Positions 2,339 to 45,687 of a DNA stretch of 46,610 nucleotides are shown here, one piece after another. This stretch comes from a virus: positions 1-46,610 of the IMG/VR virus record IMGVR_UViG_3300041955_001939; one strand, 5' to 3'. The notes under the pieces are model-generated. The model ran no database searches, was not told the origin of the DNA, and worked only from the letters and a program-made list of their open reading frames with translations. The translations under genes were made by a program, and so were the position numbers. Numbering within the stretch: position 1 is the first letter of the stretch; each line of letters begins with the position of its first letter.

Positions 2339-3373
2339 ATGGACCAAGACGACGACCGCGCCCGTGAGCGTATCTATGCGGTGTTTCCAAGTTGGATTCT
2401 CGATGACGATCTCGGCGAACTGAAGAGCGTCCTTGAAGAAGGCGAAACTGAAATCCGGAGCATCGTAATTCAGCTTCTCAGAGACCCCGACGACGGAGCG
2501 GGCGGTTCCAATCCAGCGGCGCTGTTGTTCGATGCAGCGGCGAAGATGGGGGAAGCGTTACTTGGCGCAGCCTTGGCGGCGATCAGATACCCATGGGACG
2601 AATCCGCTGATGCCATTGACGATGCAGCGGACTCGCTCTGTCAGAATGCAGTCGAATTCACTCTTCGCAAATATCAGTCCCTGGCGTCCGAAGTCTTGCA
2701 GTGTGAACCGGCTGTTGACCCTGCGGCGATAGGGAAGATGAGGAAGAGGTACGTTGTTTTGCGCGAGGAATGCAAACAAGAATACCGCGCAAATCGATTA
2801 GTCACGTGCCGGGTTTGCCACCGTCATTACAGACCTGCGGAATACAGTGCATGTCCTTCCTGCGAAATTCGCGCCCGTGAGGCTTCGCGTCCAGACAGCC
2901 AGACCACGAGTGGCGAGCCATGCATAGACGGAAAACGCATCGGGCCGGGAACCGGGGAATCGAGCGCGATTCTACGCCCTGAACCGGATGAGGCTTTGGA
3001 GCGTGAACGGGAGGGTGGACCATCATCCGCGGCAGTTGTCAGCCGCGCGAGGAAATCGGCTGAAGGAGCGAAGCGCGGTCCACAACGCGATTCCGCAAAG
3101 GCTGCGCGGGTGGCTGAGATTGTCGCGCAGGTGGGAGCGGGCCAGCGGAAAGCTGTATCGGCTTTCGCTGAGCGAGCGGCATGGCTGCGGGAGCGGCTTG
3201 CTGAGCGGGCATGGAACAGAAACGATCCCCTTAAGCACCGAGGACCCGACCCGAAGACGATAGATAAGATTCTGCGAGGTGAAACGGTGAGGGAGGACGT
3301 ACTGGAGAAGTTGGCGACGTCTCTCTCTCAAAAGGGCAAGGCGGTGGACCTATTGAACATCCCACGCAACTAG
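2339..3373 (+). CDS. Shared-HTH protein 1, with zinc-binding middle domain
   Basis: About 344 residues from ATG 2339, which has GAGGG just upstream; a TTG at 2246 would add 31 less convincing residues. Residues ~1-140 are acidic and helical. CRVC and CPSC near residues 157-175 form a likely zinc ribbon, and a low-complexity charged linker follows. The last ~70 residues (from AAWLRERLAERAW to LLNIPRN) form a helix-turn-helix-like module with the XRE-type features GPDPKTIDKILRGE and DVLEKLATSLS. The same module ends the next two genes, although the N-terminal parts do not resemble one another. It lies upstream of the replication operon, so I infer a DNA-binding regulator, possibly a prophage repressor variant. 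Confidence 0.72.
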   Translation: MDQDDDRARERIYAVFPSWILDDDLGELKSVLEEGETEIRSIVIQLLRDPDDGAGGSNPAALLFDAAAKMGEALLGAALAAIRYPWDESADAIDDAADSLCQNAVEFTLRKYQSLASEVLQCEPAVDPAAIGKMRKRYVVLREECKQEYRANRLVTCRVCHRHYRPAEYSACPSCEIRAREASRPDSQTTSGEPCIDGKRIGPGTGESSAILRPEPDEALEREREGGPSSAAVVSRARKSAEGAKRGPQRDSAKAARVAEIVAQVGAGQRKAVSAFAERAAWLRERLAERAWNRNDPLKHRGPDPKTIDKILRGETVREDVLEKLATSLSQKGKAVDLLNIPRN

Positions 3374-3381
3374 TTCTTTGG

Positions 3382-3411
3382 GGCAATCTGGTAGTTGTGG
3401 CAATCTGGTAG
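3382..3411. repeat. Two 13-bp direct repeats
   Basis: GGCAATCTGGTAG occurs at 3382-3394 and again at 3399-3411, just downstream of the first shared-HTH gene and upstream of the second. A start-to-start distance of 17 bases and the position between two putative regulator genes suggest an operator. This is inferred from position and repetition only. Confidence 0.4.
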
Positions 3412-3468
3412 CGGCTGAAACGTGCGTTGTGCGAATTTATCTTTCAGATTTTCAACCTGGGTACAATT

Positions 3469-3520
3469 GGTCCTTAAAAACGAAAAGCCCGGCTTGCGCC
3501 GGGGCAGTTCGATTAGGACC
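3469..3520 (+). promoter_or_regulatory. Two-tier hairpin in the leader of shared-HTH gene 2
   Basis: An inner stem CCCGGC-TTGC-GCCGGG (3488-3503) lies inside an outer pairing GGTCCT (3469-3474) with AGGACC (3515-3520). A TACAAT hexamer at 3462-3467 would place a transcription start close to the 5' base of this structure, but no good -35 is visible. Read on the minus strand, the inner stem is followed by CTTTTCGTTTTT and could instead act as a minus-strand terminator. A leader structure or a terminator are both possible. Confidence 0.4.
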
Positions 3521-3569
3521 TGAACACCCCCATCGTATCGCCCCCGTTGCGCCGGATGCAATTGGGAAA

Positions 3570-4241
3570 ATGTCGGAACCGGAAGAGCAAAAACTTGGCG
3601 CAATACGGGTAAACCCAAAGGTGCGCAACTTCATCGATGAGGATGCATCGGCGGCGCATGGCCGGTTCGCCAAGTCCGTACGTCAAAATCCACTCCAGAT
3701 TTATTCTGCAACGCTCAACTATCTGACTGTGCTCTTCGGCATTCATGCGCACCATCATGTCAGCCTTCTATCCACTCCAGATCAGGTTAGGGACCTTTAC
3801 TTTCCGTACCTTGCTGGTCTTACGGAGGACGTTTTTTCAGTCGGCAAGTACATGACTGAGAATTGGGTTACACCGCTGGATCAAAGTCGTTTGTTGCGCG
3901 ATTTACGTGGCGCTCTCAGCGGCGCCGCGTCTGATTGGAAGGCGGCCGCCTTCAAGTTTGTGCGCGAAGCGGAGAGCGCTCAGGAAGCCGGTAGTCAAAC
4001 AGACGGGCGTGTGCCTGACGTAGAACCACACTTCTCCGCGCGTGCGTCGTGGCTGAAGGACCGGCTTCGTGAACGCGCTTGGAATGCATCCGATCCACAC
4101 CGCCAGCGAGGGCCGGACCGGAAGACCATTCAAAAGATTCTTCGAGGCGAATCCGTACGTGTCGACGTTTTGGAGAAGTTAGCAAACGCCCTGTCGATGA
4201 AGTTTGCGAAAGTGGACCTTCTCGACATCCCTCAAAACTAA
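3570..4241 (+). CDS. Shared-HTH protein 2
   Basis: About 223 residues from ATG 3570; the frame is open further upstream, but that part covers repeats and a hairpin and is probably untranslated. Residues 1-~140 are helical, with an aromatic and His-rich patch (IHAHHHV) and no recognised domain. Residues ~155-223 hold the shared module: ASWLKDRLRERAW, DPHRQRGPDRKTIQKILRGE, VDVLEKLANALS and the terminal LLDIPQN. It is much closer to its two neighbours in this C-terminal part than in the N-terminal part, which points to module shuffling or tandem duplication with N-terminal replacement. The likely role is a sequence-specific DNA-binding regulator with a private sensor domain. Confidence 0.7.
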   Translation: MSEPEEQKLGAIRVNPKVRNFIDEDASAAHGRFAKSVRQNPLQIYSATLNYLTVLFGIHAHHHVSLLSTPDQVRDLYFPYLAGLTEDVFSVGKYMTENWVTPLDQSRLLRDLRGALSGAASDWKAAAFKFVREAESAQEAGSQTDGRVPDVEPHFSARASWLKDRLRERAWNASDPHRQRGPDRKTIQKILRGESVRVDVLEKLANALSMKFAKVDLLDIPQN

Positions 4242-4440
4242 AGGCGCATTTGTCCGTTTCTGTTACAACCGGGTCTGCTAATCTGAACGCAGCGTCCGCC
4301 CGTCTTCCGCCGTTTATGAAACCGCACGAAAACCGGGAACCACCCGGTGGACGAGGCATTCTTCCCGGTAAATTTGGAACACCACAGCCTGACCAGGAGC
4401 GGACGCTTCAATTAACGGAACTTCACAGGACGCGAAGCTG

Positions 4441-7364: not shown

Positions 7365-9061
7365 CGCCATCTGAGGAGCAGGCCACAGGAACGCTTGAGG
7401 AGATCGGGCAGCGCGATCACAGTGTTACAGCGGAGTACCGCATCTTCGGTGCTCCGGGGTGCGGCAAGACCACGAACATCACTCGCCAGATTAAGCGCGC
7501 AGTGGAGAAGCACGGTGCCGATGCGGTGCTGGTGACGAGCTACTCGCGCGCAGCGGCGACGGAACTGGCTGGCCGTGGCCTTCCCATCTCCGAGGACCGG
7601 ATCGGAACGCTGCACTCGCACTGCTACCACGTGCTCGGCAGACCGGTAATCGCGGAGGCGTGCGTAGATGAGTGGAACCGAGGCAACCCGCACCTGGCGA
7701 TCACGCCCGCCAAGAGGCAGGTCGGGCTCGACGGCGAGGGTGCCGGAGCCGAAGACGACACCGAACTGGCAAAGGGCGGCGATAAGATGCTCCGGGAGTT
7801 CAGCCGCATGCGTGGCCTGATGATCCCGCAGAACCGTTGGCCTATCGTGCTGAGCCAGTTCAAAGAGAAGTGGACGGAGTACAAACGGGCACTTGGTCTG
7901 CTCGACTTCACCGACCTGATCGAGACGTGCTACCGGGACGTCTATGCCGCGCCCAGGCATCCGGCGGTTATCTTCGCGGACGAGGCACAGGACCTCAACC
8001 GGATGCAGTTGACGCTCATCCGAAAATGGGGCGAGTGCGCGAACTACTTCATACTTGCGGGTGACGACGACCAGACCATCTTTTCGTTCACGGGCGCCTC
8101 TCCGGACGCCATCCTCGACCCGGACATTCCAGAGGACCACAAGATCATCCTCAAACAGTCCCATCGGGTTCCGCGCGCCGTCCACCAACTCGCCAACGAT
8201 CTGATCCATCGGGTCACCAGACGCCAGGAGAAGGTCTACCTGCCGCGACCGGAGGACGGTATGGTGCAGAGGCTATCGCGTGGTACCCACAAGTCGCCGG
8301 AGTATTTCATTCTCAAGAGCGCCATAAAGCATCTGGAGCAGGGTAAGACGGTAATGTTCCTCGCGTCCTGCTCATATATGCTCCACCCGCTGGTCGCGAT
8401 TCTACGCAAGAACGGCATCCCCTTCCACAACCCGTACCGCAAGACGAATGGCTTCTGGAACCCGCTGCGGATCGGCAAGAAGAGTTCGAGCGCCAACCGC
8501 ATCCTCTCTCTGCTGGTGGCACACCCGGAGTTTGGTGATGGCCATCGGGCGTGGACGAAGCGCGACTTGGCGCTGTGGGTCGAATGGCTGGGTTCGAAGG
8601 GCATCCTGAAGGACGGCGCGAAAGAGATAATCCAGACGCGGGACGGCTCCGACCCGGTGAGCGCGGAGCATCTGCACGCGATCTTCGAAACGGGGGCATT
8701 CGAATCCCTGATGGCGGCACGGGATGGCGGCAACCGCGCGCTGCTCGACTGGTGGCGAACCCGCGTCAGCGCTGACGTTCGCAAGCGCGTCCAGTTTGCG
8801 GCTGAAATTGCCGACAGTCGCGGGCCGCAGGCGCTGCTGGACACGCCCAAGGTAGTGGTCGGGACCATCCACTCTGTTAAGGGTGGCCAGGCCGATGTGG
8901 TCTACCTCTTCCCTGATCTCAGCCGGGCCGGGGACGCTCAATACAACCGGGGTGGGGCGGCGCGCGATTCCGTCATCAGAGTCTTCTATGTCGGGCTAAC
9001 CAGAGCACGCGAGACGCTTTACATCTGCCAGCGAGAGACCGGCATGGCGGTGACGATATGA
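7361..9061 (+). CDS. UvrD/PcrA-like superfamily 1 DNA helicase
   Basis: 566 residues from GTG 7361, overlapping the primase stop. Motifs appear in order: Walker A GAPGCGKTT (30-38), motif Ia region VLVTSYSRAAATEL (57-69), Walker B VIFADEAQD (203-211), motif III LAGDDDQTIFSFTGA (232-246), motif V GTIHSVKGGQADVVYL and motif VI FYVGLTRARETLYI close to the C-terminus. It is shorter than full UvrD (~720), mainly through small 1B/2B insertions. A 3'-5' ATP-driven DNA unwinding activity follows from the family. Coupling with the primase suggests that it serves element replication rather than host repair. Confidence 0.9.
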   Translation: MTPSEEQATGTLEEIGQRDHSVTAEYRIFGAPGCGKTTNITRQIKRAVEKHGADAVLVTSYSRAAATELAGRGLPISEDRIGTLHSHCYHVLGRPVIAEACVDEWNRGNPHLAITPAKRQVGLDGEGAGAEDDTELAKGGDKMLREFSRMRGLMIPQNRWPIVLSQFKEKWTEYKRALGLLDFTDLIETCYRDVYAAPRHPAVIFADEAQDLNRMQLTLIRKWGECANYFILAGDDDQTIFSFTGASPDAILDPDIPEDHKIILKQSHRVPRAVHQLANDLIHRVTRRQEKVYLPRPEDGMVQRLSRGTHKSPEYFILKSAIKHLEQGKTVMFLASCSYMLHPLVAILRKNGIPFHNPYRKTNGFWNPLRIGKKSSSANRILSLLVAHPEFGDGHRAWTKRDLALWVEWLGSKGILKDGAKEIIQTRDGSDPVSAEHLHAIFETGAFESLMAARDGGNRALLDWWRTRVSADVRKRVQFAAEIADSRGPQALLDTPKVVVGTIHSVKGGQADVVYLFPDLSRAGDAQYNRGGAARDSVIRVFYVGLTRARETLYICQRETGMAVTI

Positions 9062-9264
9062 GCAGTAGAATGTCGATCCCCGAAATCGCTAACCGGCTCT
9101 CCGTCGGCCGGCTCGCGGTCTACACGATGCTGGAGCGGGGCATCATTCCTGCCATCCGCCTCGGCCGAAGGTGGATCGTCACCCGGCACGCCTTCGAAAA
9201 CTGGGAGCGCACCTGCGGGGTGCCGACTGGACTTCCACGGAGAACCGAGCATAAGGTGACGTGA
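9058..9264 (+). CDS. Excisionase-like HTH protein
   Basis: 68 residues, with a start overlapping the helicase stop in ATGA and a stop overlapping the integrase GTG. SIPEIANRLSVGRLAVYTMLERGIIPAIRLGRRWIVTRHAFENW is the HTH_17/MerR-like fold: a helix-turn-helix followed by a short wing (RLGRRW-IV) and a W-containing helix. Its position directly upstream of the tyrosine integrase makes a recombination directionality factor the most likely role. Family members also act as transcription regulators, so the excision role is inferred from context. Confidence 0.85.
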   Translation: MSSRMSIPEIANRLSVGRLAVYTMLERGIIPAIRLGRRWIVTRHAFENWERTCGVPTGLPRRTEHKVT

Positions 9265-10484
9265 CGTCTATGCCCGTCTACAAACGCAAGTACCGGTCGG
9301 GGAAGCTGGTGTGGTATTACCAATTCGCCCCATCGGGATCGACACGTCGGGATCAGAACCTGATCACCGAATCTGGATTCGCAACCAAACAGGCTGCGAC
9401 CGCCGCCGAGGCGGTGCGCCGCACCGAGGAGCAGAAGAAGTTTGAGATGGCGAAGGCCGGTGCCGCCGGTGTCGCTGCGGTGCTGCCGACGACCCTGGCG
9501 ATGCTCCTCGAAGAATTCCTCCGGCAACACGCCGAGGAGAAGCTGGCACCCAAGACCGTCGAGCGCTATCGCGAGGAGGCTGCGTGCCTTGCACCTGAAC
9601 TGCGCGCGATGTCATTGGCCGAGATCCGGCCGATGCACCTCAACCGCGAGTGGACGCGGTTGCTGACGTGCGGCGGCCACATGCGCAAGACCAAGACGCC
9701 GCGCCCGATGAAGGCAAAAACTGTCAGGAACATCGCCGGCCTGGTCTCCTCTGCTTTCGGGCGCGCGATCAAGTGGGGGCTGGTCACCGCGAATCCGGTG
9801 ACCAACAGCGAACCCCCAGTGCCGAAGAAGCACCGAGGGATCGCGCTCACTCCGGCACAGCAAACCTTGGTTCTGGGAACGGCGTCCGGCCCATGGTGCC
9901 TTCCGGTGTTCCTGGAGATGGCGGCTGCCACTGGCTGCCGCCGAGGCGAGTTGCTGGCCCTCCGATGGACGGACATCCGGGACGGTCGCGCCACCATCGA
10001 GCGTTCGCTCACCCAGACCAAGGACGTGCTGGAGTTCAAATCGACGAAGACCGAAGACCCCCGCGTGGTCGCCCTTCCGGCGTCCGCGATGGTCGCGCTC
10101 GAAAAGCACCGCGTGCGCCAGGATGAATTCCGGGCGCAGTTCGGCGTTGATTACCAAGCCGACGACTTGATCTTCGCCAATCCGGATGGATCACCACTGA
10201 AGCCGGATTCGATTTCGGCGACAGTATCGCTGCTATTCCGAAAGCTGAAGCTGCCGAAAGGTGCATCCCTCCACTCGCTGCGCCACACGCACACGTCGCA
10301 CCTCCTGGCCGATGGAGTCCCACTGGTGGTCGTCTCCGCGCGCCTGGGCCATTCCTCGATCCGCACCACGGCGGAAATCTACGCACACATGATCCACGGA
10401 CAGGACGACGAAGCGGCGCGGCGGTGGGATGAGTTCCAGACGCGGAACGCACCGACGATCACGCCTGGAAAACAGGTACAGTGA
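9261..10484 (+). CDS. int: Tyrosine recombinase, phage integrase
   Basis: 407 residues from GTG 9261, or 404 from the ATG at 9270. An N-terminal Arm-type region (KYRSGKLVWYYQFAP) and a core-binding SAM-like domain around 75-185 lead into the catalytic domain. The active-site residues are R227 (TGCRRGE), beta-hairpin K263 (STKTED), H338 and R341 (HSLRH), H364 (RLGHSS) and the nucleophile Y374 (AEIYAH). All are present, so the enzyme should be active. It probably integrates the element at the tRNA 3' end represented at 160-186. Unusually it ends the replication operon, ~9 kb inside that junction. Confidence 0.93.
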   Translation: MTSMPVYKRKYRSGKLVWYYQFAPSGSTRRDQNLITESGFATKQAATAAEAVRRTEEQKKFEMAKAGAAGVAAVLPTTLAMLLEEFLRQHAEEKLAPKTVERYREEAACLAPELRAMSLAEIRPMHLNREWTRLLTCGGHMRKTKTPRPMKAKTVRNIAGLVSSAFGRAIKWGLVTANPVTNSEPPVPKKHRGIALTPAQQTLVLGTASGPWCLPVFLEMAAATGCRRGELLALRWTDIRDGRATIERSLTQTKDVLEFKSTKTEDPRVVALPASAMVALEKHRVRQDEFRAQFGVDYQADDLIFANPDGSPLKPDSISATVSLLFRKLKLPKGASLHSLRHTHTSHLLADGVPLVVVSARLGHSSIRTTAEIYAHMIHGQDDEAARRWDEFQTRNAPTITPGKQVQ

Positions 10485-12197: not shown

Positions 12198-15100
12198 TTA
12201 TAGAAACGTCGCGCGGCCAACCTGCTTCGGGAGCGGCAACGGCCAACTGAACAGGCAGAGGTGGTCGAAGGCCCAGAAGCAAACGAGGGGAGTGGACTGG
12301 TTCAACGCTTGAAGGAACTCGCTCGTCCACGGGCAGCCGCCGTTGAACCACGGCACCAGGTATGCGGTCGCGGAGACCGGCCAACTGCCGGGCGTGGTGA
12401 CCGGGAACGCAATCGCCGCCTGCGCGTTCGTGAAGTTGCGGTACGTCGCTCCCCACGACAGCGCCTCCATCTTCAGACGGTCGAGACCCGAGCCTGTCTG
12501 CGCCAGATACTGCGACGGCAGATTGACGGCGCGGTTGAGCCGCCCACCCTGCGGGTAGGGGACATCCGGCGTGTAGTAGCAGGTCGAGAAGTTTACGTCG
12601 AACGGCCAGAGCAGTTCGAACTTCGCGCCGGAGTAAGCCGCCAGGACCGTCGTCCGGATTGCATCGATGTGGCTCTTGATCAGACCGGCGAGGAAGTTCG
12701 TATCCGCCGATCCGTTGACGGTCGGATCGTCATCCTGCGTGTAGAACGCGGCGAGCGATCGGCCCAGCGCGGTTTGCGCCGCCTGCGCGGTATATGCGTC
12801 ATAGTAGGCCATCCCGCCGCCGCTGCACGTTCCTGTGCCGCCGACGTAATTTCCGTTCCCGCTTGTGCCATTGAGCGTAAAGTGGGTGGTGTCGGTGACA
12901 GCAATCGTCTGGTCTCCGTTCGCCGCAGTGTTGCCTTTGACACCGGCGAGGATCGCGCGCTGGCCGGTGGACAAGTTGTGCGGGGCAACCGTGCCAATCG
13001 AAATCGGCGAGGTCCAACTCGCGTATCCCACCGCGAGGTTCTGGACCACGCTGAAATACCACCACAGCACCTCACCGAACTGAAGCCACGCCGTGAGGCC
13101 GGCGGCGATCATGACTCCCGCCGCCTGCTTGTAACAAGCCGCGAGGTAGGGCGTCACGGTGGACGGATTGAACGTGCATTGCGTGGTCTGAAGATCGATG
13201 AACGTCGCGTCGCCCACGCTCGGCGTGTAGCCGCCCGAAACCAGTGTCGTGAGTTGATAGTGGTTCGCATCGGTGATGGTGATCGCCCAGACGCCAGATT
13301 GCGTTGAGCCAGCAACGTGGACGGTGTTCCCGGTGATGTAGCCGTGCCCGGTTTGCTGGATCGTGATCGGGCTGGACCCGCTGACTGCCTCGACGAAACC
13401 CGCGCCCCAACTTCCGAAGCCGGTATCGGTCAGGACCTGGTTGCCGTTGGCGAATCGCTGCGCCCACGCGCCCGCCGCAGTGTTGGCATCCGGCGGCGCG
13501 AGCAACTCCTGCGAGAACGAAACGGTCATCGTCTGGCCCGCCGCATGCACCTGCGCGCAGAAGTCGGTCAGATAGTCCGTGAACGCCCGATTGAGCGGCT
13601 GGGTCTGCGATGCGTCCACCTGCCAGACGCCCTCGTTGCCCGCTGCGATGTCGCCGCTGGCGGTGATCGAGCCGGTGGATGGATTCGCGCCCGCCGCGCC
13701 CGTGCCCGCCGCATAGCTCGAAGAGAACGTGAAGCCGCTGACCGGACTCAGGCAGGTAACAGTGAACTGGCCAGCAGTACCAGTTGGCGCTGCACAAACG
13801 CCGATGAACAGCGTGTTGATCGCGTTGATGAAGCGTTGCGCGAGAGTGGACACGGTGTCGTTCGGATATACTGCCGCCCCGAAGGACGTGCCGCCTACCG
13901 TCAAAAAGATCGCGTCGCCATCGCCAAACAGAGACCCGAGGTTGAATCCGCTCGACCCCGCCGAGATCGTGACGGTGGCCTGATGGAAACTGCCGCCCGA
14001 ACGAACCCGCTTCAACGCGAAGAAGACGCCGGAGTAGAAGTCGATGTCGCCCGCGAATCCGGCCTTGCTCAGAATCCAGAAGGCGCGCGCGGGCGCGATG
14101 GCGTAGGTCTGTGCGGTGTCGAAATCGCAGGCGCAGTTCACGTTCGAATAGGTCGTAGCGGGCGACTGCACGTCCGACAGGACCGCAGCCTGCAAATAGT
14201 CGAAGATGCAAGTTGTGCCGGTGGAGAGCGGGTTGTGAGTGCTCGATACCGCGAGGACCACTACGTGCGTACCGGGCGCGACACTCGACGCTATGAGGCG
14301 GCGGGTTTGAATCGGTGAGCCGGTGTCAGCGTAGGTTTCCACCGTCGGCTGCGCCCCGCCGTCAAGCGTAGCGGTCAGTTCGCCGCCCGCGGAAGTGAGC
14401 GACGTGCCGACGTAGAGGTTGTGCGTGTACTGGCACGAGTAGGTGACCGTCACGTGGTCGGTCGGGTTGGCGGATTGCCGAGCGAAGCCCCCGAGGTAGA
14501 AGCCTGCCTGCTGGCTCCAGCCCGTGCCTGTGAAGCTCGCCCAGAAGTCGCGGCTGCCGACCGTCACACTTCCCGGCCCCGCAATCTTCAATGGCAGGAC
14601 ACTGCTGGGATCGGACAGGGTCCAGTTGGTGAAGACCGCGCTCCACGTACCCGGCTGATAGGCGACCAGCGTGGGATTGACGGACCCGGAATCGTAGTTC
14701 AACGCGGGCGCGAAGGTGAGCCATGCCTGGCGCACCGAGTCGATTCCGTTTACCGTGAAATCGATGTGGAAATGGACGGAGGACGGGTCAGCGCCGCCGG
14801 TGAGCTTGGATGCCCCGGCTGGCGTCAGATACGTGGTGGACGTCTTGTGCATTTCCAGCAACTCGATGGAGTTGCCGTCGCGTCCGCCGCCGGGCGCGAG
14901 GTAATTGACGCCGGTTTGCGTGCCAGCCGACGTGGTCAGGGTAAGCGATGTTGGCGACACCACCGAGGCGATGACATATGGTGCCCCGTTGATGATGATC
15001 GGGTCGCCGGGCTGCGATCCCAGGTAGTTCTGACCGGAGGCGAACGATACCGACGTGCCCGAGGTGTTAACGGTCCCGTACCGCGCGGCGTACACGGTGA

Positions 15101-25764: not shown

Positions 25765-28425
25765 TCAAGCGTTTTGCGGCTTCGGTCTGACGACACGAAT
25801 GACCTTAGATCGGATCTCTCGATCTCCTTCTCTGCCGATAACCACGCCATCTTCCCAATCAAAACTGTTGGCCGCCAGAACTTTTTCAATCGGGGTTTCC
25901 CAAGCGACAGAAAGGGCTTCGACGACTGCGAACGCAAGTGATTGAGGCGAAAGCTCAGGGTTCCTTATGGACATTAGCCTCTTGTTGGATGGCGGCCATT
26001 GTTCCACCGTCCCGGACTCTTCGTCCTTCATCCTCAATACAACGAGTGTGTTGCTGACGAAAACTGTATCTTCAAGAGTGTACGATTCGAGCCTGTTTGG
26101 TTCGGCGCCCAATAGCAGTCCGTCGACGATTACGGCTGCGTCAGGGAAGGAGTGCATGAGCGCAATCTCGGCTGCTGAAACCCATTTGCCACGATGGAGT
26201 GCAATGGGCAGGCCCTTCGTCGATCCCCCGCAATACCGTATGTTCTCCGCGCAGGCCAACTGCAACTCAGGACTGTTCCACAAGCTGGGCACGATCTCCG
26301 CCTGTTCGTCAGCCCACTGCTTCAAAACCGACTCTGACACAAGCGGCATTGCCGAGTCACGGGACGCTCGGAGGGGTCTTCCAGTGAGAATTCCGACGAT
26401 CCCAGATAACCCATGCGCTCGCAATCCTCCGATGGTGACTACGCCAAGAAGATCCGTTAGCCGCCAGAAGCCCGCACGCATTCCAACGCTGATGCACGCA
26501 CGGCCAACAACCTCACCGCCATCGCCGCGAAGCAAGCGCAAATTTGATGCTGCGCGCCCCAAAAGCTCCTGCACTTCGCTAGACTTAGCAGCGGGACTCA
26601 GCGGTGCCATTCTGGACAGCAGGCCTATGCCATCCATTACCTTCCAATCGTCTGCGGAGACTACTCTCTTGACACTGCCACAGTCGCAAATTGTTAGATC
26701 TACATCAATTGCAGGACACATTCCGCTGCAGAGTCCTTCTAGGGAGCGCGAGGTCCCAGTCCTTGCCCACAGAAGACCACCTTCCTCTTTAGGATCATTC
26801 ACCAATCGAAGCTTGACGCTCGTGCCACCATCAATGAGTTGTTCGTCCTTGGTTGCTGGCCGAAGGATTGGGCGGCCGTCCAGACCGGCGCCGAATTCAA
26901 GAACGAGGGTGTCTTTGGCACCGAAATCGCAACGCCGCGTAGTCACCTGGACGTGGCTTGCGACCATGAAGACAGAAAAGAACCCAATGCCGTATTTTCC
27001 TGTGGCGTGCATCCCTGATGAAAGCAGCCCCGGCCACTCCTCCTGCATCACGGATGACCCCCAGAATGAGCCTCCGAAGTCAAGAAGAAAGTCTGTTATC
27101 ACGCGCTGGGACATCCCTATTCCGTCGTCGGAAACCTCAAGCCACCAGTCGCCTGCGACGGATTTGGTAAGTGAAACGTTGATGCGACCAAATGCGGGAT
27201 CGCGGCGTTCATAGATCCGGCGAGCCCGGACGGCGTCACAGGCGTTCTGGATCAACTCGCGAAGGGCTACTTCCGGTTTCTTGCCGTAAAGCTCCTCTCC
27301 ACCAATACTCTTAATTAGATTTGGAAGATCGCCGACTCGCACACTGGCGTTGATCGGAAGCCAGCCGTCCGTCTGTACATAGGTGGCGAGTCGTTCTGGC
27401 AAGTCCACACCCGCCACACTTCTGGCCGCGAAACGCGGATAACGCGCGTCGGAAAAAAGTGCATCAATACTGCGCAGTTCCCGGTCGAGCGTGCGGAGAG
27501 CCTCAAGGCAATGCCACCATGAATCAGCTTCTGGCAAATGGAACACGCTTCCGCTGGTGAAGACCAGCGCATCCTCTCGAAGATACGGTTTGTTCAGCTT
27601 CTCTTGAAAGCGCCAGTGAGTTTCCGAAATTGACGAGAGGTCGCTGAACGACTTGAGAAACGCCGGCGCGCGCCGGCCGTCCAAGTGGGCGGCATCTGCG
27701 GATCGGAGGGCGCAGGCGATCTTCAGAGGATCGATAGTCCACGAGGGCGGGCACCAATGAGGTGCACCAATCGCACGGTTGAAAGTGCGGTCGACTTCCG
27801 CCAGCGACCACCAGTGGCTGTGCGCTATTCTACCAATAAGTCGCCCGAACGTCTGCCGGATTTCCGTGTCTTCGATGAGGAAAAGCGGAGCACCATCGCT
27901 CGCGGGATATGACAAAAATGCGAGTCGCTCAGCATTTTCAGCGTGAACCTGCCGAAGCAGGGAGAACAGTGCACGGTGCTGAATCCTTGGCTCTGGGTTA
28001 TCTAGTTCCTGGTCTGTCGGGTCGCGATAATAGATTGCCTGATATTCAGAAAAGAGCAGGTCGGTCCAACGCGGATCTCTGTAGATTGCGACCAAGCCCC
28101 CCTCTGTTGCGGCAACTGACATCGCAAGGTCGTGCAGGAGGAACGCGCCTCCCATCACGAAGGCCTCGGCCGGAGTAAACGCAGAATTTGCCCCGGTAAT
28201 CATGGAGGCAATCTCCCAGAGAGCGTCCATATGGCTCACATCATGAACTGTCAAGTCTGGAAGATCTCGCCGCACCTCGCCTGCTAAGTGTGCCGCTCGT
28301 TCTCGTAGGGCAAGAAAGCAGGTTCGGAGCCGCTCGCGCTCACTCGTGAACTGATCTCCGTCTTGGTGCTCCAGTGTAGTTTGCCAGATTCGGGATTTCG
28401 TGACTGTCGTTGGAAGAACGCCCAT
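25765..28425 (-). CDS. HD-GHKL (Hsp90-like) ATPase, probable defence cargo
   Basis: 886 residues from ATG 28425. The N-terminal ~330 residues look like an HD-superfamily domain: H61 and H65 (HDVSH), H98-D99 (LLHDLAM), later conserved D244/H247 (ADAAHLD). A Bergerat-fold ATPase follows, with N-box RELIQNACDA (389-398), G1 DDGIGM (433-438) and G2 GKYGIGFFS (476-484), close to HtpG. The C-terminal ~300 residues are unassigned. Base composition is lower in GC than the phage structural genes. HD domains fused to Hsp90-like ATPases are known from comparative work on prokaryotic conflict systems (HD-CE-type). It lies between tail genes with which it shares no function, so it is inferred to be a moron, possibly anti-phage. 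Confidence 0.85.
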   Translation of the reverse strand: MGVLPTTVTKSRIWQTTLEHQDGDQFTSERERLRTCFLALRERAAHLAGEVRRDLPDLTVHDVSHMDALWEIASMITGANSAFTPAEAFVMGGAFLLHDLAMSVAATEGGLVAIYRDPRWTDLLFSEYQAIYYRDPTDQELDNPEPRIQHRALFSLLRQVHAENAERLAFLSYPASDGAPLFLIEDTEIRQTFGRLIGRIAHSHWWSLAEVDRTFNRAIGAPHWCPPSWTIDPLKIACALRSADAAHLDGRRAPAFLKSFSDLSSISETHWRFQEKLNKPYLREDALVFTSGSVFHLPEADSWWHCLEALRTLDRELRSIDALFSDARYPRFAARSVAGVDLPERLATYVQTDGWLPINASVRVGDLPNLIKSIGGEELYGKKPEVALRELIQNACDAVRARRIYERRDPAFGRINVSLTKSVAGDWWLEVSDDGIGMSQRVITDFLLDFGGSFWGSSVMQEEWPGLLSSGMHATGKYGIGFFSVFMVASHVQVTTRRCDFGAKDTLVLEFGAGLDGRPILRPATKDEQLIDGGTSVKLRLVNDPKEEGGLLWARTGTSRSLEGLCSGMCPAIDVDLTICDCGSVKRVVSADDWKVMDGIGLLSRMAPLSPAAKSSEVQELLGRAASNLRLLRGDGGEVVGRACISVGMRAGFWRLTDLLGVVTIGGLRAHGLSGIVGILTGRPLRASRDSAMPLVSESVLKQWADEQAEIVPSLWNSPELQLACAENIRYCGGSTKGLPIALHRGKWVSAAEIALMHSFPDAAVIVDGLLLGAEPNRLESYTLEDTVFVSNTLVVLRMKDEESGTVEQWPPSNKRLMSIRNPELSPQSLAFAVVEALSVAWETPIEKVLAANSFDWEDGVVIGREGDREIRSKVIRVVRPKPQNA

Positions 28426-30887: not shown

Positions 30888-31382
30888 TTACGGGTTTTGA
30901 GATTCGATCAGGTTCGCCCGGACCTCGAAGTACTCAAACGTGGCTCCGTCCGCGCTGATCACGACCGTGTTGCGCTGCGCCGAGGGCAGGTAGAAATCCA
31001 TCGGCTCGCAGTTGGCGTCAATCGGCGTGTGCAGCATGCTGAGACTTCCGCTCGACGGAACATCGTTGACGAGCCAGTTGAAGATGTCCTCGTAGCCGAC
31101 GCTCGCGCTCTCGGGCGCGCGCAGGTACAACGAGAACTCGTGAACGAATACGAGAGCGCTGCCGAGCCTGCCGGGCCGCGTACCCTGCCACGCGATCAGG
31201 ATCGAACCGGGCGGCATCGACAGGATCGCCAGCCGGATATTGTTCTCGGTCTGCTGCCCGAAGACACTGGCGTTCTCTGAGTAGTACTGGATGCGGCTGC
31301 CGTCACCGATCGCCGCGACCAGATTCGGCAGAGCTTGAAGCGCGGTCACCCATTCGCCGAGGATTGTTTTCGGATTGATCAC
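30888..31382 (-). CDS. Tail terminator-like protein
   Basis: About 164 residues if started at GTG 31382 (INPKTILGEWVTALQALPNLVAAIG). The frame extends to 31511, but the extra residues look like non-phage sequence next to the inserted ATPase gene. Size, a helix-then-beta arrangement, FSLYLRAPE and the position directly before the tail genes fit the lambda U / tail terminator class, which caps the tube. The upstream 43 codons are probably remnant sequence left by the cargo insertion. Confidence 0.6.
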   Translation of the reverse strand: MINPKTILGEWVTALQALPNLVAAIGDGSRIQYYSENASVFGQQTENNIRLAILSMPPGSILIAWQGTRPGRLGSALVFVHEFSLYLRAPESASVGYEDIFNWLVNDVPSSGSLSMLHTPIDANCEPMDFYLPSAQRNTVVISADGATFEYFEVRANLIESQNP

Positions 31383-31623
31383 GGAAGTGCGCAGTGGGTT
31401 GGTGGCCCCCCGTGCAGAGGGCATTTCGACGGGTCGCCGACTTACACGGCTAGGATTGGTAATCAGATCGCCGGTTAGATTCCGGAGGATGACTTCATCA
31501 CAATCGCTCAATTATGGGCGGAATCTTTGTCTTCCAGATCGTCCCGCCCGATTCCACCCACTTCCATCCCAACCTGATACAGGGGAAGATAGCGCGACAA
31601 GATTCGGACCAAGCCAGCAGCGA
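31383..31623. other. Gap between cargo nuclease gene and tail terminator
   Basis: About 240 bases without a clear gene. The late reading frame continues partway into it without phage-like composition. It may be the border of the DNA that brought in the GHKL-nuclease gene. Confidence 0.35.
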
Positions 31624-33561
31624 TCAGCGCTGAAATAGGTCCATCGTGTCCTGGGTGGAGAGCACATCTCTCAATTCAGGATCGGTATCCTGCGGCGGAC
31701 GGACAGCTTCTATCTGACGATGTAAGTGGAATGTGCGGGCGTGAGCTCGTGTCAGCAAGTTGTCGTAGATCATCGGATGCAGCGTGGTCGCTGATCCAAT
31801 TGTCGAGGGTTCCAGGCCGTCTTCCATTTTTGATCCGAGGATGTACGCTTCGACTTGGGTATGCCTATCGACGCAACCCGCAGCGCGAATCTCCTTGATG
31901 TAGTCTCGGGCTTGATCCATTTCCCCTTGGGTGAGATTGAATCCTCCGCGCTTCAACTCTACAATCAATACCTTTCGGTAGCCAAACGCCTCCCCATTCT
32001 CAGCGTAATGGTCAGCCGCGTAGGCACCGATTGATGATTCGGTCAGAGCGACAAAATCCGGTCTGTTCCTGGTCGCATCAGCGTCGGCTTTGCCGAAGAA
32101 CTTCCGAATGACCTCAGCCATCCCCCGGTTGGATCGGAAATCGACAGCTTCGTATTCCGGCCCAAACATCCAGAGGCCCCTTTCAAAAAGCGGCTGAAGT
32201 TCGTGAACTTCGTCGGTCTTCCTATCATTGATGAGACCCTGCAATCTTGCGATTAGCGTTAGTCTTTCGCCCAGTTCGTTCAGGACCAAGGTGGCGCTGC
32301 TCGCTGTCCATCGCTGCATGATCGCATTCCACTCATCGAGATCGTCAGGCGAGCACAACGCGAGTTGCTTCAGAAGGTCGTACCCGGATCGGGTTTGTTC
32401 CAGCTTCGCGTAAATCGAAACGGTGCGAGATAGGTCCTGATCCGACAGGCGCGGGCACTGCTCCTGCACCTGTTCCACAAACTGCGCGACAATTTGCTTT
32501 GATTGCTCAGGCAATTCTCTCAGTAGCTGCCGATGCTCGTCCAGTGCGGCCTTTTTTCGTGCCTTCCGATCATCCGCCAAGGCTTCATAGAGTTTCTTTG
32601 TGATGTAGCTCCGAACGCTCTTGCTGACCACGTTAGATCGAGCTGTGGCATGAAAGCCGCTCCAATCTGCCTTCACCTCGTCACGAAGAATGTCGGCCCG
32701 GATGATGAAGCTAAACCTCTTAGCTTCGGACTTGCGCCCATCGAGAATACTGCCCTCACCATCAAGCCCTTCCCACGACGGCTCGCCTACCATTCGATCA
32801 TTCACCCACCAAGTCAGACCTTTCAGCTTAGATGAACGATCTGCACTGGCAGAATCAAGGATGTAGACATCAACCTTGCCGTGGGGGCCCACCGTTATGC
32901 TGTCGGTTACAAGTTTTTGGAGATCGAACAATTGAACCGACCGACCATTCAAGAGGATCGAGAAGGACGGATCAACGATGAATCGCGTACCGATTACTTC
33001 CAAGATTTCAGCCTCGCTGAGAAGCCCCCTTATGAGCTCAGCAGAAACAATAGTGCCGGGCGCGTATTCCGGCGCATCTTCGTCCGCTGTAACGGAGCAA
33101 CGAAAGGGGCTTTCGCCACCTTCAGTCAGGGAGACCTCTGCTATCAGGCGTCGCCCTTCTTTTCGAGTCTCTACCGCATATCGATCAGAGAAACAGAAGG
33201 CGGCATGGCGACCTTTCCCGTTGCGTCCAAAGGCAGTTCGCTGGCGTTTGGGGACACCCGGTGGAAACTCAACACTCGCGCCTTGCTCCTTCAATCGGTC
33301 GTAGGACAAAGTTCTCCAACGCCGGTTAAATTCGTCGTCCGTCATACCGGTTCCGTTGTCAGCTATTGCGAACGGACCGACCTTGTCATCCGGCCAAGTG
33401 ATGTCTACCGCCGTTGCGCCCGCATCATACGCATTCGCGATGAGTTCAGTGATCGCTGTCTTGGGATCGGTAATGATGTGGCCGGCATGGTCCCGAAGGA
33501 AGTTCGGGCTGAACGAAAACGGCAACTCTAGGTTTTGGTCGATGTACCTTTTGCGGTCCAT
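31624..33561 (-). CDS. GHKL ATPase fused to PD-(D/E)xK-like nuclease
   Basis: 645 residues from ATG 33561; an ATG 13 codons upstream (33600) is also possible. The N-terminal Bergerat fold has N-box TELIANAYDA (38-47 in this numbering), G1 IADNGTGM (66-73) and G2 GRNGKGRHA (112-120). The middle is helical. The C-terminal ~150 residues begin with ELQPLFERGLWMFGPEYE and carry RPDFVAL and VLIVELKR, i.e. D502 ... E535-x-K537 of a PD-(D/E)xK nuclease, then QARDY. GHKL-nuclease fusions of the MutL/MORC type occur in restriction-like systems. Codon use is less GC-rich than the flanking head and tail genes. It separates the head joining gene from the tail terminator, so it is likely anti-phage or superinfection-exclusion cargo. 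Confidence 0.87.
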   Translation of the reverse strand: MDRKRYIDQNLELPFSFSPNFLRDHAGHIITDPKTAITELIANAYDAGATAVDITWPDDKVGPFAIADNGTGMTDDEFNRRWRTLSYDRLKEQGASVEFPPGVPKRQRTAFGRNGKGRHAAFCFSDRYAVETRKEGRRLIAEVSLTEGGESPFRCSVTADEDAPEYAPGTIVSAELIRGLLSEAEILEVIGTRFIVDPSFSILLNGRSVQLFDLQKLVTDSITVGPHGKVDVYILDSASADRSSKLKGLTWWVNDRMVGEPSWEGLDGEGSILDGRKSEAKRFSFIIRADILRDEVKADWSGFHATARSNVVSKSVRSYITKKLYEALADDRKARKKAALDEHRQLLRELPEQSKQIVAQFVEQVQEQCPRLSDQDLSRTVSIYAKLEQTRSGYDLLKQLALCSPDDLDEWNAIMQRWTASSATLVLNELGERLTLIARLQGLINDRKTDEVHELQPLFERGLWMFGPEYEAVDFRSNRGMAEVIRKFFGKADADATRNRPDFVALTESSIGAYAADHYAENGEAFGYRKVLIVELKRGGFNLTQGEMDQARDYIKEIRAAGCVDRHTQVEAYILGSKMEDGLEPSTIGSATTLHPMIYDNLLTRAHARTFHLHRQIEAVRPPQDTDPELRDVLSTQDTMDLFQR

Positions 33562-33757
33562 TTCTGATGTTCCGACGCACTTTTTTCCACGCTCCAGCAT
33601 ACGACAAACGCGTTGGTAATTGTTTAGGCGGCCGGGGCGTGCTCTGATATCTCGGGAGGCCCCACGAGAGGCTTCGTATTCATCGAGGCAAAATCGAGCG
33701 CTCCGGTGAACTTGCTACTTGGCCGTATCACGACCAAAAAACCGTCGACCCGACGTG

Positions 33758-34084
33758 TCAACCCGCGCGCTGCAACAGCGCGAGGGCGATCATCCCGTAG
33801 GCATCGGGCTGGCGCACGGTAGTCACTGTGTACTGCGCGCCCCACGCGGTTACCCAGTCGCCCTTTACCGGGGGATTCGAGAAGTCGGCGGGGTTCACCG
33901 AGATCTCCTCGAAGTTCGCCAGCGCGCCCGACTCCTCGCGTACGCGGGCGTGCCGGACTGCGGTGATAGTCAGTGGATCGCCCACCGCAGTTCCGGCCTG
34001 CACCGGCTGATACACGACTGGCTCGCCGAACGTCTGCTGCATGACGACGTTCGCCGCCGCGTCTATTGCGGACCAACTGGACAT
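33758..34084 (-). CDS. Head-tail joining protein
   Basis: 108 residues from ATG 34084. The beta-rich sequence VRHARVREESGALANFEEISVNPADFSNPPVKGDWVTAWGAQYTVTTVRQPDAYG, with a central GDWV and a final beta hairpin, resembles lambda FII and related head completion proteins that prepare the filled head for tail docking. It follows the decoration gene and starts seven bases after it, which is the lambda order. Gene size is normal for the class. Confidence 0.68.
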   Translation of the reverse strand: MSSWSAIDAAANVVMQQTFGEPVVYQPVQAGTAVGDPLTITAVRHARVREESGALANFEEISVNPADFSNPPVKGDWVTAWGAQYTVTTVRQPDAYGMIALALLQRAG

Positions 34085-42949: not shown

Positions 42950-44203
42950 TCATGCGGCATTCTTCAGCCGCCCCGCCGCTACATCGTCGAAGGTTCCGCC
43001 GCCATCGAGAAGCGCTTTCTCACCCGTGTACTCTTGCCAGCGCCGGATAATCACATCGCAGTACCTCGGCTCCGACTCAATCAGCCGCGCCTGCCGCCGC
43101 GATTTCTCGCACGCGATCAGCGTAGTGCCGGACCCGCCGAAGACATCGAGAATCGTGTCGCAAGTCTTGCTGCTGTTGCGCAGCGCCCGCTCGACCAGTT
43201 CGACCGGCTTCATCGTCGGGTGTTCGAGGTTCGCCATGGGCCGCTTGATGAACCACACGTCGCCCTGGTCCCGCGCGCCGCACCAGAAGTGATCGGTCCC
43301 GTTGCGCCAGCCGTAAAGGATCGGCTCGTACATGCGCTGGTAGTCCGAGCGGCCCAAGGTGAAGTGGTGCTTTGCCCAGATTACGAACGTCGACCAGTGG
43401 CCTCCGGCGTCCGTGAACGCCCGGAAGAGCGTGTGCAGTTCCGACGAGGACATGCAGATGTAGATCGCTCCCTTGGTAACCGCCAGCACGTTCGTGCACG
43501 CTTCGCGAAGGAAGTCATAGAACTTCCCGCCCAGCGCGTCGTTGCCAATCTTGAGCTTCTTCGCGGTCTTGCCAACGTAATCGACGTTGTAGGGCGGGTC
43601 CGTGAAGACCATGTCCGCGAGGCCGCCCGCCAGAACCGTTTGAATCGCATCCATGCTGGTCGCGTCGCCGCACAGCAAACGATGGTCGCCCAGCACCCAC
43701 ACATCACCCGGAACGGTGATGGCCGTCTCCTGCTCGTCGGGAACGGCGTCCTCGTCCGTCACTCCATCGCGCGTCTCTTCCGGATCGCGCAGCAGGTCTT
43801 CGAGTTCCTCGTCGGTGAATCCGACGATGTCGAGGTCGAAACCGTCTTCCTGAAGCGACGCCAGTTCGACCCGAAGCATCTCTTCATCCCAACCGGCATC
43901 CAGCGCGAGCCTGTTGTCCGCGAGCACCAGCGCGCGACGTTGCGCCTCGGTCAGGTGATCGAGAACGATGACCGGGACCTCGGTCATCTTCAGCCTCCGG
44001 GCTGCCGCAAGCCGTGCGTGGCCGGCGATGATTGTACCGTCCGCAGCGACAAGGATCGGGTTCGTCCATCCAAATTCGCGGATCGACGCGGCGACCTGCG
44101 CCACCTGTTGGTCGGTATGGGTGCGCGCGTTTCGGATGTAGGGCAGCAGCCTGTCGATGGACCAGACCTGAACCTGCAACCGGGAGAGATCGATCATCAT
44201 CAC
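42950..44203 (-). CDS. ParB-like domain fused to DNA methyltransferase (DPPY type)
   Basis: 417 residues from ATG 44203. Residues ~10-90 are ParB/Srx-like (DRLLPYIRNARTHTDQQVAQVAASIREFGWTNPILV, then GHARLAAARRL at 61-71). The methyltransferase half has TDPPYN at 201-206 (motif IV; DPPY usual for adenine-N6) and DVFGGSGT at 353-360 (motif I), a circularly permuted beta-class order. Its start overlaps the stop of the paralogue at 44200 by four bases. In phages such fusions are common next to terminase and may modify DNA against restriction. The ParB-like part probably supplies DNA binding; the target sequence cannot be read. Confidence 0.88.
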   Translation of the reverse strand: MMMIDLSRLQVQVWSIDRLLPYIRNARTHTDQQVAQVAASIREFGWTNPILVAADGTIIAGHARLAAARRLKMTEVPVIVLDHLTEAQRRALVLADNRLALDAGWDEEMLRVELASLQEDGFDLDIVGFTDEELEDLLRDPEETRDGVTDEDAVPDEQETAITVPGDVWVLGDHRLLCGDATSMDAIQTVLAGGLADMVFTDPPYNVDYVGKTAKKLKIGNDALGGKFYDFLREACTNVLAVTKGAIYICMSSSELHTLFRAFTDAGGHWSTFVIWAKHHFTLGRSDYQRMYEPILYGWRNGTDHFWCGARDQGDVWFIKRPMANLEHPTMKPVELVERALRNSSKTCDTILDVFGGSGTTLIACEKSRRQARLIESEPRYCDVIIRRWQEYTGEKALLDGGGTFDDVAAGRLKNAA

Positions 44204-45594
44204 GCTGCCTTCCGCTCCTCGATCACGCCGCGATCTTCCGCAACCTCGCGGAGCGTCTGTCCCGTCGCGGCCAGCACCGGCTCGTCGCCGGTGAGTTCCT
44301 GCATCCGGCGCAGGATCACGTCGCAGTAGGCAGGGGAGAGTTCAACCCCGAAGCCAATCCGCCCGAGCACGTGCGCTGCGGCCATCGTCGTTCCGCTTCC
44401 CATGAACCCGTCGAAAATGGAATCGCCTTCGTCCGAGAACGCCTTCACGAAGAACTCGACCAGCGCGCGCGGGAACGGAGCGGAGTGCGATCCCTGACTG
44501 CCTTCAGCCTTGGCCTCGATCACATTGCTCGGCCATGCGATGCCCGTGGTCTTCTCGGCACCGCAACCGAGAAGGCCCGAGCCGCTCGGCGCAGAGGGAT
44601 TGCCCGGCGCGTACACCACGACGTTTTCGGACTCGTGGCCAGCGCCCTTCGGCCGGAACTTGATCTCCTTGTTGCGGCAGAAGTGAAACACCGGCTCCCA
44701 GGCGTTCTTCAGTCGGTTGGGCCACTTGCCCGGCACGCCGTTCGCGGTGTTCCTCCAGCAGAACTCATCGACGAAACGCCAGCCCCACTCCCGCTTGTGG
44801 GCCAGCACCAGATCCTTCACGTAGAGGCTGCGTTCGCCGTCCTCCGAATGCTCTTTGATGTTCAGGAAGTACGAGCCGTCGGGAGCCAGCACCGACTCGA
44901 TGTTACGTGCGACCTCGCCGAACCACGCCACGTACTCATCGGGAGGGATGGGCTGGAAGCCGCTTGAGGGATCGTAAGTGCGCTGCGAGGCATAGGGCGG
45001 TGAGGTGATCGCTACGTTCACTCGCGCGCCATCGAGCAGCCGCGACAACGTGGCAGCATCCCGGCAGTCTCCGCAGATCAGACGGTGCCGTCCGATCACC
45101 CACACGTCGCCGGGACGCGACACCGGGTTGACGGGCGTTTCTGGAATCTCATCCTCGCCCGCGTCTCCTTCACCGGCAAGGGCGTGGTCCGCCAGCAGGA
45201 TGCGAAGTTCCTCGTCGGAGAACCCGACCAAGTCCAGATCGAAGCCGTCCTCCTGGAGCGCAGCGACTTCCGAGCGCAGCATTTCTTCGTCCCAGCCCGC
45301 GTTTAGCGCCAGCTTGTTGTCGGCAATGACCAGTGCGCGCTTCTGCGCTGGCGTCAGGTGGGCCAGCACGATGACCGGGACTTCCTCCATCCCCAGCTTC
45401 CGGGCAGCGAGAAGTCGTGCATGCCCGGCGATGACGACGCCGTCGCCGTCCACCAGAATGGGATTCGTCCAGCCGAACTCCCGGATACTGGCGGCTACTT
45501 GGGCGACCTGCTCGTCCGAATGCGTCCGCGAGTTGCGGGCGTGGGGCAGGAGCGCGCGGACTGACCGGAGCTCGATCTTGGTGGGGAGATGCAT
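44200..45594 (-). CDS. ParB-like domain fused to DNA methyltransferase (TSPPY type)
   Basis: 464 residues from ATG 45594; a TTG at 45642 would add 16 poorly supported residues. The first ~140 residues repeat the ParB-like pattern of the neighbour almost block for block (LLPHARNSRTHSDEQVAQVAAS, GHARLLAARKL, LVIADNKLALNAGWDEEMLRSE). The catalytic half has TSPPY (197-201), typical of N4-cytosine or some N6-adenine enzymes, and DGFMGSGTT as motif I near residue 405. The two genes are tandem paralogues with one N-terminal origin but different motif IV, so they probably methylate different sites. Confidence 0.87.
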   Translation of the reverse strand: MHLPTKIELRSVRALLPHARNSRTHSDEQVAQVAASIREFGWTNPILVDGDGVVIAGHARLLAARKLGMEEVPVIVLAHLTPAQKRALVIADNKLALNAGWDEEMLRSEVAALQEDGFDLDLVGFSDEELRILLADHALAGEGDAGEDEIPETPVNPVSRPGDVWVIGRHRLICGDCRDAATLSRLLDGARVNVAITSPPYASQRTYDPSSGFQPIPPDEYVAWFGEVARNIESVLAPDGSYFLNIKEHSEDGERSLYVKDLVLAHKREWGWRFVDEFCWRNTANGVPGKWPNRLKNAWEPVFHFCRNKEIKFRPKGAGHESENVVVYAPGNPSAPSGSGLLGCGAEKTTGIAWPSNVIEAKAEGSQGSHSAPFPRALVEFFVKAFSDEGDSIFDGFMGSGTTMAAAHVLGRIGFGVELSPAYCDVILRRMQELTGDEPVLAATGQTLREVAEDRGVIEERKAA

Positions 45595-45687
45595 TCGATT
45601 TCGAGGGGTGACAACCCGGCCTGACAACCTGCCTAAGCCCAACTAACTACGCAAGCTGCGCTATATTTCTACCCGCGGCCCGCACCT
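45595..45687. other. Upstream region of the methyltransferase pair
   Basis: Non-coding by composition, with an AT-rich patch near 45660-45672. It may hold a late promoter for the methyltransferase-terminase genes; no clear hexamer pair was recognised. Confidence 0.3.

Follow-up and report, generated by a model that had tools for sequence, protein, structure and literature searches.

Standalone proteins with an N-terminal GHKL domain, an S5-type domain and a C-terminal restriction-fold nuclease bearing an E-D-ExK pattern were described by Iyer, Abhiman and Aravind in 2008 as a subset of paraMORC3, with no conserved gene neighbours and a patchy spread across phyla (PMC2292703). VcSduA, a GHKL-Shedu protein of Shedu type I-D, is encoded by a single gene on a genomic island; substitutions in its ATPase (E27A) and in its nuclease (K557A) abolish defence, and it gives protection at every multiplicity of infection tested, with no abortive signature (PMC12137116). 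Related nuclease domains are found in Shedu SduA (PF14082/DUF4263; PDB 8ti8 and 8ti9), and related GHKL ATPase halves in the HgiDII/BbrUII restriction enzymes (NF050001) and in PHROG 6203.

The cargo gene studied here encodes a 658-residue GHKL ATPase-nuclease of the standalone paraMORC3 or GHKL-Shedu type, P0001, and is located at 31624–33600 on the minus strand of a stretch of viral DNA of 46,610 nucleotides (IMG/VR record IMGVR_UViG_3300041955_001939), the whole of which is referred to as the window. The window is a soil phage, and a temperate one, since genes for terminase, portal, fused capsid-protease, decoration and head-closure proteins are present together with an integrase gene. The initial annotation had placed the open reading frame at 31624–33561; the frame and its minus-strand orientation proved real, and the start was displaced upstream to the first ATG at 33600. 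The ATG at 33561 is internal, 13 codons downstream of the first, and gives a product of 645 instead of 658 amino acid residues. Residue numbers refer throughout to the 658-residue form, in which D502, E535 and K537 of the initial annotation correspond to D515, E548 and K550. The gene runs in the same direction as the head and tail genes, on the strand of the late operon; its GC3 is 0.595, as compared with 0.746–0.838 in the neighbouring structural genes. A terminator-like hairpin at 33743–33755 was not above shuffled expectation. Elsewhere in the window, the gene at 44200–45642 (minus strand) encodes a ParB-like protein fused to a DNA methyltransferase, with 61–96% identity across the phage lineage.

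The GHKL (Bergerat) ATPase domain comprises approximately residues 46–190 (33031–33465, minus strand), and was delimited by a match to Pfam HATPase_c_3 (residues 46–159, E = 1.4e-16), by invariant columns and by Foldseek. Its motifs are E52xxxN56xxD59, D81NG83TG85, G125RNG128KG130 and G182T183, and residues E52, N56, D59, D81, G83, G85, G125, G128, G130 and G182 are invariant in 67 aligned sequences drawn from many phyla. Foldseek matched the N-terminal two thirds of the protein to Hsp90/TRAP1, MORC3 and MutL (E about 1e-10 to 1e-13), and the alignments to MORC3, Hsp90 and MutL spanned 360–399 columns, extending past the GHKL domain. This span, together with the helices and strands of residues 196–316 in the AlphaFold model, showed that an S5-fold domain follows the GHKL domain; it was placed at approximately residues 214–316 (32653–32961, minus strand; model mb559082bcfeb, pLDDT 82; Foldseek to MORC3 and MutL). 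Residues 261–271, GLTWWVNDRMV (32788–32820, minus strand), agree with the MORC S5 motif GhXhhpXXRhl at 10 of 11 positions, the mismatch being a V at the polar position, and this near-match is conserved in the P0001 family. A helical middle region, recognised from the AlphaFold secondary structure, occupies approximately residues 320–456 (32233–32643, minus strand).

The remainder of the chain, approximately residues 460–631 (31708–32223, minus strand), was assigned as a Shedu-like PD-(D/E)xK nuclease domain from conserved columns, hhalign and AlphaFold. Its signature reads E464, RPD513–515, E548-x-K550 and Q563xxxY567. Across the 67 aligned sequences E464, N491, R513, D515, K550, Q563, Y567 and G589 do not vary, and at least 90% of the sequences retain P514 and E548. 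Since the columns are invariant or conserved to this degree, the ATPase and nuclease motifs represent more than chance. The HATPase_c_3 match and the 67-sequence conservation thus bear out the initial annotation of one chain with a Bergerat ATPase and a C-terminal D...E-x-K nuclease-like pattern including RPD.

Alignment by hhalign of the C-terminal profile with one built from 14 Shedu nuclease domains gave a match of 96.7% (E = 3.2e-10, 160 columns), in which the RPD and ExK regions and that of the Q after them were aligned to their Shedu counterparts. The reversed Shedu profile gave 0.4%, 30 column-shuffled profiles gave at most 0.9%, and the match was still 92.5% when the most Shedu-like clade was left out. 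Within the P0001 family, direct matches were obtained to Pfam SduA_C for 3 of 67 members and to PADLOC SduA for 11 of 67, and HMM matches led transitively to Shedu through homologues L008, L082, L084 and L085. P0001 itself had no match to Pfam SduA_C (PF14082) at E ≤ 1 and reached only E = 0.05 against a purpose-built Shedu HMM; direct sequence searches of Pfam, PADLOC and PDB with its nuclease domain returned nothing. Because P0001 itself, unlike some of its relatives, does not match directly, it is placed in the Shedu nuclease superfamily by profile and not by the Pfam model.

When modelled alone by AlphaFold, the C-terminal domain gave a confident model, with a pLDDT of 85 and a pTM of 0.81; in model mb559082bcfeb the pLDDT is low around residues 504–514, adjoining RPD. 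Foldseek with the model of the isolated domain retrieved nothing at E ≤ 0.001, and the 50 matches listed included no Shedu protein. This comparison may be disturbed by an insertion between D515 and E548, drawn as long strands in the model. The sequence evidence for nuclease identity is stronger than the structural evidence, and the missing Foldseek match is a real weakness. Regarding the nuclease fold proposed in the initial annotation, motif and profile-profile comparison thus favour a Shedu-type PD-(D/E)xK domain, whereas the structural search did not add a significant match.

The gene lies between two virion genes, as had been noticed from the sequence alone. The upstream border is an Hc1-like head-closure gene (33758–34084, minus strand; PHROG 82, E = 8e-4), 86–96% identical in the related loci L104–L107, and the downstream border is a structural gene with a GTG start at the tail-terminator position (30888–31382, minus strand), 93–98% identical in the same loci. 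The latter always adjoins head closure or cargo; it had no match in PHROGs or NCBIfam, and "tail terminator" is a positional name only. With this gene 80 related phage loci were fetched (60–98% identical), in 77 of which it lies less than 40 bp from the head-closure gene. The P0001 gene is absent from all 80 loci and from 12 whole records of relatives, so that it is dispensable, and the possibility, raised with the initial annotation, of its universal presence in this lineage was refuted. In the empty-site relative L105 the spacer is about 10 bp, and the surrounding structural genes are mostly 95–98% identical to those of the window.

The whole acquired segment measures 2375 bp (31383–33757, minus strand) and consists of the open reading frame with flanks of 157 bp on its upstream side and 241 bp on its downstream side. 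Neither flank had a convincing match in any relative, in agreement with the non-phage-like sequence previously noted at the downstream border, and the borders of the insertion showed no target-site duplication or direct repeat longer than 6 bp. At the same junction L104 carries a DUF4062 protein (8383–9294), L106 an FRG-domain protein (9198–9968) and L107 a protein of no recognised family, all in the opposite orientation. The P0001 gene is a recent cargo gene.

The second GHKL protein, whose presence in the same phage had been regarded as unusual, is also real and is likewise cargo, in a separate variable site. It is an 886-residue HD-CE and HSP90-like ATPase protein (25765–28425, minus strand; PF24391, E = 5e-46; HATPase_c_3, E = 9e-9) with a GC3 of 0.587, and a pattern-based viral scan with it found no relative. 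This second site, the interval from the second chaperone-like gene to a conserved gene for 157 residues, exceeds 350 bp in 55 of the 58 measurable loci, the window included; it holds a TIR protein in L104, an AIPR protein in L105 (4702–6447), and elsewhere KAP, pentapeptide, ParA-like, DUF4365, PDDEXK_4 and other families. L104 has a further TIR protein at a third site, which lies between the genes for decoration and head closure; its two TIR genes are at 7370–7999 and 12239–13870. All three sites are in the structural module.

In many of the loci L109–L172 the portal-capsid interval contains an extra gene for about 160 residues (MKGNPQVIAGLQEA...), which the window lacks. One protein of cargo set A6 (which includes L114 1832–2638) has a DUF3738 domain; this domain is typical of Acidobacteriota and is a possible hint at the host. 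A host search with the portal protein against 396 genomes from the phylum of G295 (a Vicinamibacteria MAG, Acidobacteriota) gave a best match of only 38% identity.

Full-length homologues of P0001 are widespread in Pseudomonadota, Bacteroidota, Bacillota, Verrucomicrobiota, Planctomycetota, Acidobacteriota and others, and nearly all of those found belong to bacterial genomes and plasmids. In a quick tree, P0001 grouped with sequences from Verrucomicrobiota, Planctomycetota and one other phage (SH-aLRT 99). A viral scan with P0001 as single query found nothing, and an alignment-based viral scan found four full-length homologues. One homologue, in L091 (49% identity; 7977–10115), belongs to another phage, where it follows tape-measure-like and tail genes of the same strand and occupies the extreme end of the contig. 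Another, in the Verrucomicrobia MAG L012 (50%), has a DNA-methylase-like gene (3313–4359) 92 bp upstream. No conserved operon partner was found, the largest neighbour family occurring in 9 of 91 homologous loci; recurrent neighbour families include restriction, methylase and helicase genes, and homologues on plasmids are near Shedu, AbiEii, HepT, UvrD, MmeI or Cas9 genes.

On these data we consider it likely that P0001 is a self-contained ATP-gated DNA nuclease, a GHKL-Shedu protein (standalone paraMORC3, Shedu type I-D-like), and that its gene is a moron of this temperate soil phage and protects the lysogen by direct restriction and not by suicide. The evidence counted for this reading comprises the conserved motifs, the fold similarity to Hsp90, MORC3 and MutL, the Shedu profile link, the rotating defence-type neighbours, the cargo status, the low GC3, the defence-like genes at the corresponding sites of relatives and the precedent of VcSduA. 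By analogy with Hsp90, MutL and MORC, P0001 would dimerise through ATP binding; the dimer would act as a clamp on DNA, and ATP turnover would license the pair of C-terminal nucleases, which would then cut the DNA of the invading phage. If P0001 is expressed in the lysogen, as we infer, the latter would be protected against superinfecting phages by restriction rather than suicide, and the dormant phage with P0001 probably protects its host from rival phages. Counting against expression in the lysogen are the position of the gene on the late-operon strand and a promoter scan upstream of it, which recognised none and was not above shuffled expectation.

It is unlikely that P0001 represents the restriction half of a restriction-modification-like system dependent on a separate DNA methyltransferase, like the GHKL enzymes of the HgiDII/BbrUII type. 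Its ATPase half does match the NCBIfam BbrUII/HgiDII (E = 7e-24) and PADLOC REase_II models, the methylase-like gene adjoins the L012 homologue, and the phage has its own ParB-methyltransferase gene; but the BbrUII/HgiDII match is confined to the ATPase half (84 bits against a cutoff of 550), and beyond the mixed cluster of 9 no methyltransferase partner recurs in the 91 homologous loci. The ParB-methyltransferase was rejected as a partner, being a core gene, 93–96% identical in relatives that do not have the GHKL gene. The initial annotation had left open whether this was a restriction-type or an abortive single-gene system, and by analogy with VcSduA (PMC12137116) the restriction type is the better supported and the abortive type the less so. 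An abortive-infection effector, whose nuclease would destroy host DNA upon sensing of a phage, seems quite improbable: a nuclease fused to an ATP-driven switch would suit that role, and relatives hold TIR and AIPR genes at the P0001 site and at neighbouring sites, but the nearest tested architecture, VcSduA, protected irrespective of multiplicity of infection (PMC12137116). TIR and AIPR proteins appear in the argument for that role as members of families often linked to abortive infection.

The orientation of the gene, shared with the head and tail genes, and the same-strand position of the L091 homologue in the tail module of another phage would also suit a late lytic function, such as degradation of host DNA, cleavage of competitor genomes or DNA processing in packaging, in place of defence of the lysogen. 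We hold this to be very unlikely, since the gene is dispensable, as judged from the 80 relatives without it, the cargo of L104, L106 and L107 at the same site points the other way, and the homologues are nearly all bacterial or plasmid-borne. Finally, were the C-terminal domain inactive as a nuclease, P0001 could act as a DNA clamp of the MORC/MutL type and block the replication or transcription of phages. The Foldseek result for the isolated domain and the low pLDDT next to RPD could be read in this way, but distant relatives keep the E, D, ExK, Q and Y residues with little or no variation and the domain is linked by profile to Shedu nucleases, and we consider an inactive domain very improbable.

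A broader proposal, which we regard as a whole as evenly poised, has two parts. The head-closure/tail junction and at least two other junctions of the structural module would serve this lineage as sites at which standalone immunity genes (GHKL-Shedu, DUF4062, FRG, TIR, AIPR and HD-CE-GHKL) are exchanged, so that near-identical virion modules carry different defence repertoires. P0001, for its part, would be a member of a GHKL-Shedu subfamily that is separate from VcSduA and includes sequences from Verrucomicrobiota, Planctomycetota and another phage. The window and L104–L107 constitute a natural experiment, in which near-isogenic phages carry a different defence-like gene between the same two virion genes; with this set one could test both how the lysogen benefits from such cargo and how well a late operon tolerates inserts.

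Compared with the systems described previously, the direct-restriction nuclease proposed here is a standalone paraMORC3, i.e., a GHKL-Shedu protein, and a further member of an already known, though little-studied, kind of bacterial anti-phage protein. Like standalone paraMORC3 (PMC2292703), it combines GHKL, S5-type and putative nuclease domains, with the E-D-ExK motif at E464, D515 and E548xK550 (the motif, the fold being without a Foldseek match), and its family shows the same lack of conserved neighbours and patchy distribution. It differs in that its gene lies inside a phage structural module and in that its family keeps the near-match to the MORC S5 motif, which paraMORCs lack according to the same source. 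From Shedu SduA, with which its D...ExK...Q residues are in register in the profile match, P0001 is distinguished by a GHKL sensor, by having no direct Pfam match and by the D515–E548 insertion. With HgiDII/BbrUII and PHROG 6203 it has the GHKL ATPase half in common, in contrast to which its score is below the NCBIfam equivalog cutoff (84.3 against 550 bits, residues 50–229 only) and it has no dedicated methyltransferase. VcSduA (PMC12137116) resembles it in being a single-gene GHKL ATPase with a C-terminal Shedu-type nuclease, and the equivalents of E27 and K557 in P0001, E52 and K550, are both invariant in the 67 rows. The spacing between these residues is 498 in P0001 and 530 in VcSduA, the latter taken from published residue numbers, and since it differs, this comparison, made by residue numbers, suggests that the P0001 family is a sister subfamily to VcSduA. 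With P0001 the GHKL-Shedu nucleases gain a member carried by a phage; among them VcSduA, from a genomic island, has been tested (PMC12137116). The more unusual aspect is the location in a phage, within a compact head-tail operon in which short spacers are docking sites for defence-like genes that are interchanged among very closely related phages.
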